Source: a virus. From it: a stretch of 41,343 nt of DNA. The stretch spans positions 1-41,343 of the IMG/VR virus record IMGVR_UViG_3300010370_000004; one strand, given 5' to 3'. This document shows positions 16,541 to 30,531 of the stretch, one piece after another (the stretch's first letter is position 1; each line of letters starts with the position of its first letter). Under the pieces are notes generated by a model. That model saw only the letters and a program-made list of their open reading frames with translations, searched no databases and was not told the DNA's origin. The position numbers and the translations under genes were made by a program.

Positions 16541-16906
16541 TTACACTACACGTTCTAACAATCCTTCTACGTTGAAGTTATCCGCTTTAAACACCTTTGG
16601 AACACCATCGCCAAAGATTTGCAGGCGACACATGCCATTACTTTCAATAGCAAGTGTATAGAACGCTCCGTACTTTCGTGAAAGTCTTTCGTAGGGGTTC
16701 TCCTGGGTGATGGTCACCTTGGGCTTAGGATCGCTTGAGACGCATTTTGTGGTAAAACCATGAGAAGGTGGCTTTTGAGAAAGTGGAGCCATGTTACGGG
16801 CCTTCAAACACGTTTTACAGCTAGAGCGGTAGCCGTCCTTAGACGTGCAGTCACGCTGAAACTGAGCGTACTCTTGAACCTTTTTGCAGCGAAAACAGGG
16901 CTTCAT
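16541..16906 (-). CDS. Zinc-finger protein, paralogue of the gene at 26995
   Basis: 121 residues. MKPCFRCKKVQEYAQF...KDGYRSSCKTCLK gives two C-x2-C pairs (zinc ribbon), followed by a second domain (NPYERLSRKYGAFYTLAIES). The same layout and residues occur in the plus-strand gene 26995-27297. Start choice is supported by a promoter TTGACT-N17-TAGACT ending 9 bases before the ATG. Possible HNH-derived or transcription-factor zinc module; function unknown. Confidence 0.6.
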   Translation of the reverse strand: MKPCFRCKKVQEYAQFQRDCTSKDGYRSSCKTCLKARNMAPLSQKPPSHGFTTKCVSSDPKPKVTITQENPYERLSRKYGAFYTLAIESNGMCRLQIFGDGVPKVFKADNFNVEGLLERVV

Positions 16907-21317: not shown

Positions 21318-21413
21318 CGGGGAGTACCTCAGTGTTTAGAGGGCCCGACCGCTGCCACTGCAAATAGCTTATGGCATGTCAGGAAGTCGCAGGTTCAAAT
21401 CCTGCCTCCCCGC
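21318..21413 (+). ncRNA. tRNA-like RNA with extended anticodon arm
   Basis: Acceptor CGGGGAG (21318-21324) pairs perfectly with CTCCCCG (21406-21412). Linker TA, D-arm CCTC-AGTGTTTA-GAGG, variable AAGTC, canonical T-arm GCAGG-TTCAAAT-CCTGC. The anticodon arm is replaced by ~40 bases: CCCGAC/GTCAGG (one mismatch) then TGCCA/TGGCA around a 14-base loop. That loop begins CTGCAAA, identical to a tRNA-Cys(GCA) anticodon loop. Shares its D-loop (AGTGTT) and T-loop with the element at 13527-13649. Confidence 0.5.
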
Positions 21414-26994: not shown

Positions 26995-27297
26995 ATGAAG
27001 ACCTGTTTTCGATGCCAAAAGAACAAGGACTATTCCTGCTTTGCCAAGGATAGCCGAAAGAAGGACGGATACCGTGCTTCCTGTAAGGAGTGTCTTAAAA
27101 AGACCCGCAATTCGCCCAGGATCGTTCCTGATCCCGGATTCGTAAAAGTACCAATCATAAGCGAAGAACGCACTACGGACGAACAGGATGTCATTTTCGA
27201 GGCTCTTTCCAGGAAGCTGAACACTCACTACTCAATTAGCGTAAATAATGGCTTTGCACGTATCCAGGCCCATTACAACGGCTATACGAAGACCTGA
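26995..27297 (+). CDS. Zinc-finger protein, paralogue of 16541-16906
   Basis: 100 residues. MKTCFRCQKNKDYSCF...KDGYRASCKECLKK repeats the two C-x2-C pairs of its paralogue nearly residue for residue. The second domain (EALSRKLNTHYSISVNNGFA) is also alignable. Own near-leaderless promoter. Possible regulator; function unknown. Confidence 0.6.
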   Translation: MKTCFRCQKNKDYSCFAKDSRKKDGYRASCKECLKKTRNSPRIVPDPGFVKVPIISEERTTDEQDVIFEALSRKLNTHYSISVNNGFARIQAHYNGYTKT

Positions 27298-27410
27298 AAA
27301 GGACAGAGCGCGAAGGACGTACTTCAAAAGGTGTTAGCGTAGAAAATAATAAAGCGACACAAGGAATGAGTTCGTCTACTTGTTATGCTTCTATCATTCG
27401 ATAATTCGTG

Positions 27411-27416
27411 TATTAT
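27411..27416 (+). promoter_or_regulatory. -10 box of the cassette promoter
   Basis: TATTAT, 7 bases (CTAAACA), then ATG of the leader peptide at 27424. The -35 region is weak (CTTCTA/TTCTAT). Confidence 0.45.
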
Positions 27417-27423
27417 CTAAACA

Positions 27424-27504
27424 ATGCTTCTGGGTAAATATTATTTACAGGCCCATACGGATTCCCAGAAGCTTTTGTATGGGTCTATAAATGATATTTT
27501 ATGA
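27424..27504 (+). CDS. 26-codon leader peptide
   Basis: MLLGKYYLQAHTDSQKLLYG then SINDIL. The ATG follows a TATTAT box by 7 bases (leaderless), and the TGA overlaps the ParB-like ATG as ATGA. The coding sequence coincides with the interleaved inverted repeats described separately, suggesting a translation-dependent switch. Not recognised as any known leader. Confidence 0.5.
   Translation: MLLGKYYLQAHTDSQKLLYGSINDIL
27426..27483 (+). promoter_or_regulatory. Pseudoknot-capable regulatory RNA in the cassette leader
   Basis: Stem A: GCTTCTGGG (27426-27434) pairs perfectly with CCCAGAAGC (27464-27472) and is followed by TTTT. Stem B: CCCATAC (27452-27458, inside the loop of A) pairs perfectly with GTATGGG (27477-27483, outside A). 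A third hairpin GTAAAT/ATTTAC (27434-27448) lies in the loop. A and B interleave, so they form an H-type pseudoknot or two alternative states. Confidence 0.65.
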
Positions 27505-28640
27505 AAAAAATCACAAAGCTAACGTCAGAAATTGTCGACGAACTGAAGAACCTTTCCGTCGATGAAAAGATAGAAGCGCTAAATAGCGTCAAACTTGCCT
27601 TGCACGAGGCAAGTCCAATGTCTGGCGAACCAGTCGATTGCGTTGTTTGGGTAAAGAACGAAGAGGTAAAGGCAAACGATTACAATCCAAACAAAGTTGC
27701 CCCTCCAGAAATGAAGCTTCTTGAGGTCAGTATCCTTGAGGACGGATATACACAACCGATTGTTGCATGGCGCAACGAAGACAAAATAGAAGTCGTGGAC
27801 GGATTTCATCGAAGTCGCGTTGGGAAGGAAAGTAACGTAGTTCGACAAAGGGTACACGGTTATTTACCCGTTGCTATTATTAATGATGGAAAGACCGGGA
27901 AGACGGAGCGTATTGCGTCAACGATTCGCCATAACCGCGCCCGTGGAAAGCATATGGTGGATGCAATGTCAGATATTGTTATCGAGCTGAAGAATAGGAA
28001 CTGGAAAAACGACCGAATCTCACGCGAGCTTGGAATGGATGAAGACGAAATCCTACGCCTTATGCAGATCACCGGACTTGAATCACTATTCAAGGATGAG
28101 GACTTCAGCAAATCATGGATGATTGAGGATAGTGAACTTGAGTTCGACGAACTGACAGACGAGGTTTCGCAAGAGGAGAAGCAAGCAAATAAGTGGAGAA
28201 CCATTAATACAAACGACGAAGACCGCATTTTCCATACCTATGACAAATGGGAGTGTTACGCAGCTGGTTTCTACAACACCACGAAGGAAGGAATGACGGA
28301 ACAGGAGTGTGAGCAAGAATACAAGAAACTTCTAACGAATGATAAGGAGTTTAGGTCGGCACTGGATGGTGTTATCAATAACTGGAAACACTCTTGTGAG
28401 CACTATCTTACAAATAAGTCTATGAACAGGATTGCATGGCTCGGACAAGCCGCACTGTGTTACTCGCGCGGAATACCATCAATTTACCGTGGAGGGTTTA
28501 ACCTTCTAACGAAAGAGGAACAGGAAAATGCAAATTCGATTGCGCTTGAATATCTTAACAAGTGGCTTAAGAGTAATGGTCGCGAAGAAGTCACTATTGA
28601 GGACGGCCTTTTGATCGACAAACAATCCGAAATCTACTAA
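27501..28640 (+). CDS. IbrB-like ParB/Srx-fold protein
   Basis: 379 residues. The ParB-N/sulfiredoxin-like domain at ~45-150 contains NPNKVAPPEM (62-71), DGYTQPIV, VVDGFHR (98-104) and STIRHNRARGKH (140-151), close to the IbrB type found next to PAPS-reductase-like IbrA. An HTH-like helical segment (~155-190) follows. A C-terminal domain of ~140 residues (HTYDKWECYAAGFYNT...) goes beyond the minimal IbrB. Translation is coupled to the leader peptide. The ParB/Srx fold can bind nucleotides; here a partner role for the PP-loop protein is inferred from conserved pairing. Confidence 0.8.
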   Translation: MKKITKLTSEIVDELKNLSVDEKIEALNSVKLALHEASPMSGEPVDCVVWVKNEEVKANDYNPNKVAPPEMKLLEVSILEDGYTQPIVAWRNEDKIEVVDGFHRSRVGKESNVVRQRVHGYLPVAIINDGKTGKTERIASTIRHNRARGKHMVDAMSDIVIELKNRNWKNDRISRELGMDEDEILRLMQITGLESLFKDEDFSKSWMIEDSELEFDELTDEVSQEEKQANKWRTINTNDEDRIFHTYDKWECYAAGFYNTTKEGMTEQECEQEYKKLLTNDKEFRSALDGVINNWKHSCEHYLTNKSMNRIAWLGQAALCYSRGIPSIYRGGFNLLTKEEQENANSIALEYLNKWLKSNGREEVTIEDGLLIDKQSEIY

Positions 28641-28648
28641 CCACTCCC

Positions 28649-29878
28649 ATGAAAATTAAAGAATATCAAAGCTACAATGTACTAGAAGCTGCGCGAGAGC
28701 GTGTAAGGATCGTATTTAATGAATTTGAGAGAGTGTATGTTTCGTTCTCTGGCGGGAAAGACTCGACGGTTATGCTCCACCTCGTTATGGAGGAGGCGAA
28801 GAAGAGAAATAGGAAAGTAGGCGTTCTTATTATTGACCTAGAGGCACAGTACAAGGACACGATAGACCACATCGAAAAGACCGTCGAAATGTATAAAGAA
28901 AATATTGATCTTCACTGGGTTGCCATCCCCATGCTTCTTCGGAATGCTGTTTCAAACTTTGAGCCACGGTGGATTTGCTGGGACGAGGAAAAAAAGGATA
29001 TGTGGGTGAGAGAGAAGCCGAAATTGGCAATAAATCCTGAAGTCTACCCGTTTTACACTCCTAAAATGGAGTTTGAAGAATTTATGGTTATTTGGGGGGA
29101 CTGGTACTCGCAGGGAAAGCTAACCGCTGGATTTATTGGAATCAGGGCAGACGAAAGCCTACATCGATATTGTGCAATTGCGAGAAATAAAACAGGACTT
29201 ACGTATAAGGGATACAAATGGACAACCAACGTAACGCGAAATTTGTTTAATATTTATCCAATTTATGACTGGAGGACGGAGGATATATGGGTTTTCCATG
29301 GTAAGTATTCCAGTCTTCCGCACAACAAAATTTATGACAAGATGAACATGGCTGGTGTAAAACTAAGCCAACAACGCCTTTGCCAGCCCTACGGGGACGA
29401 TCAGAGGCGCGGACTGTGGCTGTATCATATTCTTGAGCCTCAAACGTGGTACAAGGTTGTCGCTCGCGTTAATGGGGCGAATTCCGGCTCTTTATACATA
29501 GAGGAAAGCGGGAACATAAACGGATACAATCATGTCACGAAGCCAGACGGACATACATGGCAAAGTTTTTGCAATCTTCTACTTAAGACTTTGCCTAAAA
29601 AGACGCAAGAGCATTACAGATACAGATTTAAGAAGTTTATAGCTGGTTGGCATGATAGGGGATACACAACCATCCCTGACGAGTCGCCGCCAGAGCTTGA
29701 GGCAAAATGCTGGGCACCATCCTGGCGCAGAATGTGTAAGGTAATTCTTCGCAATGATTATTGGTGTAAGGGCCTTGGCCAAACACAGCCAAAGTCCGAG
29801 GCGTATATGCTCTATAAGGCTATACGAAAAACACGGAAAGAGAATGAAATCCTAAAGGAAAGCCTTGTAGCTGTATGA
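28649..29878 (+). CDS. IbrA-like PP-loop / PAPS-reductase-family protein (DUF3440-type)
   Basis: 409 residues. ATP-pyrophosphatase PP-loop SGGKDST (34-40), then LIIDLEAQY, GIRADES (163-169) and YPIYDWRTEDIWVF (202-215), the hallmarks of the PAPS reductase/IbrA group. A C-terminal DUF3440-like extension has several Cys/Trp. The family activates a substrate with ATP for sulfur transfer or reduction (TtcA, DndC and CysH are relatives); the substrate here is unknown. Starts 9 bases after the ParB-like stop. Confidence 0.8.
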   Translation: MKIKEYQSYNVLEAARERVRIVFNEFERVYVSFSGGKDSTVMLHLVMEEAKKRNRKVGVLIIDLEAQYKDTIDHIEKTVEMYKENIDLHWVAIPMLLRNAVSNFEPRWICWDEEKKDMWVREKPKLAINPEVYPFYTPKMEFEEFMVIWGDWYSQGKLTAGFIGIRADESLHRYCAIARNKTGLTYKGYKWTTNVTRNLFNIYPIYDWRTEDIWVFHGKYSSLPHNKIYDKMNMAGVKLSQQRLCQPYGDDQRRGLWLYHILEPQTWYKVVARVNGANSGSLYIEESGNINGYNHVTKPDGHTWQSFCNLLLKTLPKKTQEHYRYRFKKFIAGWHDRGYTTIPDESPPELEAKCWAPSWRRMCKVILRNDYWCKGLGQTQPKSEAYMLYKAIRKTRKENEILKESLVAV

Positions 29879-30531
29879 GATACGCTGAAAGCCCATCCTC
29901 GTGCTACACTTACGACCATTGCCCCAGAAAATATAAGTTTCGATACATTGAGAAGCTTCCCGATCCTGCTGGGCCAGCTGCGGAGCTAGGAAAGATGTTT
30001 GAGGATGCCGTCTATCCCGCCTGGAATAATCGGAATATCCCGAATCACAAAGACCCGAAAATCGAAAAAATGTTATACACACTTTTTACGTCTATAGAAG
30101 TACTATCTTTGCCCATCGCTTCCGGCTTTCAAGAAAAGATTGATGTTGTTTGTGGTAGAAGTCGTTTATTGGGATACATGGACATGCGACATGTAGACAA
30201 TTCAATTACCGATATAAAAACGTCAAAAAAACAATGGGACGAAAAAAAGCTGTCTGAATCGGAGCAGCATGTTGCATATCCGTACGGGGCCGTAAAAATG
30301 GGCTTGCTACAGCCGATATTTCCGATTGTCTTTAGATATGTAATAACAACGACAGGAGAAAATCCTATTGTCCAGGTGATAGAGTTAAACATTACCGAAA
30401 TGGATTTTATGGAATACGAGAAGCGATTTTCCGAAAGGATAAAAAAGATAGAACTAGAAATTTTTCCAACAAAAAGGTGTTACGAGTGCAACTGGTGTCC
30501 ATATAAGAAGATTTGTCCCGCCTGGAATTAA
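29875..30531 (+). CDS. Cas4/RecB-like PD-(D/E)XK nuclease with Cys cluster
   Basis: 218 residues. CPRKYKFRYI near the N-terminus (C16), GKMFEDA in place of the usual G-x-x-x-H helix, GYMDM (D103), DIKTSK (D113, K115) and a Q-x-x-x-Y motif in EQHVAYPYG. C-terminal CYECNWCPYKKICPAW gives four Cys that with C16 could bind an Fe-S cluster, as in Cas4/AddB. ATGA overlap with the PP-loop gene places it in one translational unit with IbrA/IbrB-like genes. Likely a DNA (or nucleic-acid) nuclease. Confidence 0.75.
   Translation: MRYAESPSSCYTYDHCPRKYKFRYIEKLPDPAGPAAELGKMFEDAVYPAWNNRNIPNHKDPKIEKMLYTLFTSIEVLSLPIASGFQEKIDVVCGRSRLLGYMDMRHVDNSITDIKTSKKQWDEKKLSESEQHVAYPYGAVKMGLLQPIFPIVFRYVITTTGENPIVQVIELNITEMDFMEYEKRFSERIKKIELEIFPTKRCYECNWCPYKKICPAWN

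Follow-up and report, generated by a model that had tools for sequence, protein, structure and literature searches.

A long leader hairpin overlapping a 26-codon ORF ahead of a phage ParB/PAPS-reductase-like/nuclease cassette, a candidate for translational coupling

The leader of an accessory operon in a viral genome holds a long, near-perfect hairpin whose structure is genuine and not a product of chance, and which is overlapped along its entire length by a short ORF ending at the first gene of the operon. We tentatively favour, as an explanation still somewhat short of probable, a translation-limiting hairpin that ribosomes translating the overlapping leader ORF would open. The window (the whole 41.3-kb stretch of viral DNA that was analysed) carries three accessory genes, all on the plus strand, which form a ParB/PAPS-reductase-like/nuclease cassette (Table 1). 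The intergenic region ahead of this cassette spans 203 bp at 36% GC, and the cassette itself has a GC content of about 43-45% versus about 50% elsewhere in the window. The gene directly upstream of the cassette (26995-27297, +) encodes a small CxxC zinc-finger-like protein, with an apparent paralogue at 16541-16906 (-) that shares the pattern MKxCFRCxK...KDGYRxSCKxCLK. Elsewhere in the window, the Rfam model for tRNA matched 96 nt at 21318-21413 with 47.6 bits, where ARAGORN makes no call, possibly an unusual or decayed tRNA.

Table 1. Features of the leader and of the cassette behind it
Feature	Position	Strand	Basis or remark
TATTAT, possible -10 hexamer	27411..27416	+	Sequence; 7 bases before leader ATG
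26-codon leader ORF MLLGKYYLQAHTDSQKLLYGSINDIL	27424..27504	+	Sequence; stop overlaps ParB start
Repeat A, 5' strand GCTTCTGGG	27426..27434	+	Sequence; adjoins foot of long hairpin
Long near-perfect hairpin	27436..27499	+	Inverted-repeat search; arms 27436-27461 / 27474-27499
Promoter-like pair TTCCCA 27462-27467 / 18-nt spacer / TATAAA 27486-27491	27462..27491	+	Sequence, 9/12 consensus
Repeat A, 3' strand CCCAGAAGC	27464..27472	+	Sequence; within apical loop of long hairpin
ParB-like (IbrB-like) gene, 379 aa	27501..28640	+	PHROG 2159, E 1.1e-70
PAPS-reductase-like PP-loop/DUF3440 (IbrA-like) gene	28649..29878	+	Pfam PF01507, PF11922; PHROG 2302
PD-(D/E)XK nuclease gene	29875..30531	+	Pfam PF12705

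The hairpin reached an ungapped inverted-repeat score of 45, whereas 300 shuffles of the region averaged 17.5 and never exceeded 28. It is also the top-scoring inverted repeat of the whole window (runner-up 34). Of the first-pass proposal, an RNA structure that overlaps a short ORF immediately in front of the cassette is supported, and it is beyond chance. Its two arms of 26 nt form 21 Watson-Crick and four G-U pairs, with one C-A mismatch at 27448/27487, around a loop of 12 nt (27462-27473, TTCCCAGAAGCT). A single base separates the end of the stem from the ParB ATG (27501); the 25 pairs of the stem occupy -65 to -2 relative to that codon. When folded as RNA, positions 27418-27504 had a minimum free energy of -27.3 kcal/mol (z -4.2) that was equalled by none of the shuffles; it is the strongest plus-strand structure in the window once GC content is corrected for. 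The first-pass annotation had described two interleaved perfect inverted repeats here, A of 9 bp and B of 7 bp, and both are found in the sequence at the positions given. Repeat B (CCCATAC 27452-27458 / GTATGGG 27477-27483) is, however, only the core of the long hairpin, whose extension to 26-nt arms had been missed.

Several features bear on the level at which the hairpin might act. The sense strand folds more stably than the antisense strand (-27.3 vs -21.8 kcal/mol). The arms differ at five positions, each time by a transition, and four of these differences are G-U combinations that keep pairing in the sense RNA, a proportion that is not significant alone (binomial about 0.19); together, these asymmetries lean towards an RNA role. 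Nor is the hairpin a by-product of the peptide encoded across it, because none of 1000 synonymous recodings of that peptide attained the observed fold energy (average -10.2 kcal/mol, minimum -22.1, vs -27.3 observed).

The ORF that spans the hairpin was likewise read in the sequence as first proposed, with 26 codons that cover the whole element and an ATGA (27501-27504) in which its stop overlaps the start of the ParB-like gene. An in-frame TAA lies just 5' of it (27418-27420). An ATG ORF of at least 26 codons ending at the ParB start arose in 2.9% of shuffled intergenic sequences. Its codons gave a log-likelihood of 0.5, set against 4.65 +/- 3.1 for in-frame and -4.9 +/- 3.3 for out-of-frame pieces of the genome, and the coding evidence is equivocal. 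An N-terminal extension of ParB into the leader is ruled out by an in-frame TGA at 27492-27494. As for the -10 box claimed ahead of the ORF, what is present is no more than a hexamer match, since the promoter scan found no -35 partner and did not report the hexamer. The same hexamer is surrounded by an operator-like dyad, TTCGATAAT-6-ATTATCTAA (27397-27420). An exact direct repeat, ATGCTTCT, occurs at 27385-27392 and again, 39 bp apart, at 27424-27431, where the second copy opens both the leader ORF and repeat A.

Shine-Dalgarno motifs are nearly absent from the gene starts of this phage: a Shine-Dalgarno-like motif was found at one of 35 gene starts in the window, the ParB-like gene start has none, and the 20 bases upstream of the window's gene starts contain much C and T and little G. 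The host of the phage may use a different mode of initiation; CPR genomes (WWE3, Parcubacteria) contain relatives of the cassette, at most a clue to that host. The 20 bases upstream of ParB (-20 to -1) are the most paired among the 36 starts tested, with a mean of 0.11 unpaired, the next lowest being 0.28. The stem does not quite reach the ParB ATG, which is 0.73 unpaired when a longer RNA is folded freely. A ribosome footprint modelled at the leader ORF stop leaves the ParB start clear, a result that is partly built into the construction. Close upstream ORFs are common for the ParB-like gene: in 36 of 77 relatives an upstream ORF ends close by, placing the ParB start at -26 to +7 nt from that end, a count in which starts were chosen by a heuristic and ORFs were called mechanically.

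Taken together, these data suggest a mechanism in which the sense RNA of the accessory operon would carry the long leader hairpin and the 25-pair stem, as predicted by folding, would close the upstream initiation region of ParB. Independent initiation at ParB would probably be poor, because the stem closes this region in a phage that lacks Shine-Dalgarno signals and has C/T-rich leaders that are mostly more open. The leader ORF may instead be begun leaderless, or nearly so, at 27424, with the ribosome traversing the whole hairpin; released at the ATGA overlap, it could then reinitiate on ParB, so that ParB output would depend on translation of the leader. Unfolding of a structure over a second start by translation of the first ORF has been described for translational coupling in a review (PMC12548453). 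A metabolite or stalling input to the leader would be pure speculation. We favour coupling on indirect supports: a hairpin beyond chance that does not follow from the peptide, mostly G-U asymmetries and a more stable fold in the sense strand, the most paired region upstream of any start at ParB, a start left clear by a ribosome at the leader stop, a leader ORF with a chance of 0.03, and close upstream ORFs in many relatives. Counting against it are that none of about 90 related cassettes has the element, that the codons are equivocal and that the ParB ATG is largely unpaired. If real, the arrangement would represent a hairpin and micro-ORF serving as a simple restraint on an acquired accessory operon in a phage without Shine-Dalgarno signals.

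Turning to conservation, related cassettes were found at 80 IMG/VR loci, with PAPS-reductase-like genes 68-82% identical and ParB about 57-70% identical to those of the window, as well as in named phages and on 16 contigs from bacterial genomes, WWE3 and Parcubacteria among them. The search of IbrB/IbrA-like leaders that the first-pass annotation had put forward as a check recovered no conserved counterpart: none of about 90 related cassettes, covering relatives of at most 70% ParB identity, has a corresponding hairpin or leader ORF, so that they offer no covariation and the outcome of this check speaks against conservation. The best upstream hairpins in the relatives are ordinary terminator-like hairpins. 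A covariance model of the single element was used to search about 180 loci and 50 whole viral records, where it convincingly matched only the element itself and its reverse complement; one partial match, in locus L177 (14.8 bits, E 1.6), lies outside the leader and is at chance level. No convincing further copy emerged from exact and gapped pattern scans of IMG/VR and GTDB genomes or from blastn of phages and plasmids, and the 41.3-kb window holds no second copy. A search for close phage relatives found none: terminase queries reached no more than 61% identity, queries with the portal and upstream genes had no matches, and the cassette was present in 0 of 50 terminase-related records, many of which are fragments. 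Since the cassette occurs in many, widely differing phage contexts, absence of the element from related cassettes does not prove it inert in this phage. In phage Mwe-JY13 (locus L003, 4004-5090), the annotation splits the ParB-like gene into two neighbouring ORFs, which match residues 4-221 and 235-369 of the window's 379-aa ParB-like protein.

Two rivals of coupling remain live. The better placed of these, if somewhat unlikely, is that the hairpin is palindromic DNA without a regulatory job, created by an inverted duplication through template switching in replication or by insertion of a palindrome at the left edge of the cassette, and since decayed by transitions. The exclusive occurrence of transitions among the five arm differences is consistent with such decay, the low GC of the intergenic region and cassette relative to the rest of the window fits an acquired block, and the element is missing from all relatives. 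Against this, no second copy was found in the window, in the pattern-scanned collections or in the blastn searches, and a palindromic repeat or MITE-like element, of which several copies would be expected, gains no support from the window or the collections searched; moreover, four of the five differences preserve pairing in the sense RNA, and the hairpin fits exactly between the start of the short ORF and the ParB ATG. If the element is not functional, it would illustrate how interleaved repeats picked by eye can be pieces of one longer palindrome.

ParB-like proteins are often DNA-binding, and the second live rival, an unlikely one, is that the repeat is a DNA dyad acting as an operator or promoter, to which a regulator, perhaps the ParB-like protein, would bind as a dimer. 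The repeat overlaps the weak promoter-like pair (Table 1), which is positioned for transcription to start at or just before the ATG. Judged by its sequence, this pair inside the hairpin would yield a leaderless ParB mRNA, and leaderless starts are plausible in a genome without Shine-Dalgarno motifs. Usual operators, however, are much shorter than these 26-nt arms and their 12-nt spacer, weak promoter matches of this kind are no commoner than in shuffles, and sense-RNA pairs are kept at four of the five asymmetries.

The first-pass annotation had proposed that repeats A and B could form a pseudoknot or compete as a two-state switch read by ribosome position or a ligand. The smaller parts of that proposal are present as described: a TTTT directly after repeat A (27473-27476, four T only), a third hairpin at 27434-27448 (GTAAAT-ATT-ATTTAC), and the lack of a match to any known riboswitch class, no Rfam family coming near its gathering score at the element. 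The pseudoknot does not survive. Repeat A has its 5' strand ending one base short of the long stem's foot and its 3' strand in the 12-nt loop; judged by this geometry, a single molecule can form either helix A or the full stem, and steric exclusion would be lifted only by opening the greater part of the stem. An H-type pseudoknot was thus rejected on geometry and energy.

Competition between the two stems fared better in one respect. In folds of the nascent RNA, A has the lowest energy once transcription reaches about 27472 and up to about 27480, after which it would be displaced by B, whose loop is filled by the A 3' strand and whose foot is abutted by the A 5' strand. The energies are nevertheless lopsided, with the fold containing A at -16.3 kcal/mol, 11 kcal/mol weaker than the long stem (-27.3 kcal/mol). 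Repeat A alone is not significant and near the level of chance, a 9-bp perfect repeat of its kind being present in 4.75% of shuffled 203-nt regions; the window holds six such repeats, with no excess over its shuffles (5-18). When A was enforced, the ParB start was not cleanly opened, remaining partly paired (0.50 unpaired over 27481-27504, 0.34 over 27498-27506). With just four T after A and no covariation available, we consider a two-state RNA switch decided by ribosome position or a ligand to be distinctly improbable. Still more doubtful is a phage-specific switch in the nascent RNA of a genome nearly devoid of Shine-Dalgarno sequences, where stem A would form transiently and give way to the 25-pair hairpin, gating the accessory operon via leaderless translation of a 26-codon ORF.

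Equally doubtful is a transcription terminator or insulator for the upstream genes, which would find parallels in four relatives (L124, L151, L089, L159) that carry terminator-like hairpins and T-runs just before ParB, as if insulating the cassette from upstream transcription, but here the stem is directly followed by ATTTTATGA, which is no real T-run, a lack on which a terminator was rejected, an intrinsic terminator scan (which takes loops of at most 8) gave no match at the hairpin, and no space is left for a promoter between stem and ParB.

Compared with known systems, the cassette resembles the IbrB/IbrA-type cassette of Microcystis phage Mwe-JY13 in its order of ParB-like, PAPS-reductase-like and exonuclease-type genes, whereas Mwe-JY13 and other IbrB/IbrA-type cassettes lack the hairpin leader. 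Its complementary segments are interleaved as in H-type pseudoknot and riboswitch leaders, but here the long stem and helix A are sterically exclusive and match no Rfam family. In erm-type translational attenuation, a short leader ORF and a hairpin control the next start, and both components precede the next start here; this leader differs in that no clean alternative hairpin frees the start, and ribosomes would run through the hairpin instead of stalling ahead of it. Finally, in comparison with translational coupling by RNA unfolding and/or termination-reinitiation (PMC12548453), the first ORF here has 26 codons, lacks a Shine-Dalgarno motif and shows no conservation, and coupling is predicted; the likeness is that a structure lies over the initiation region of the second ORF, and that the first ORF passes through this structure to end in a stop/start overlap.
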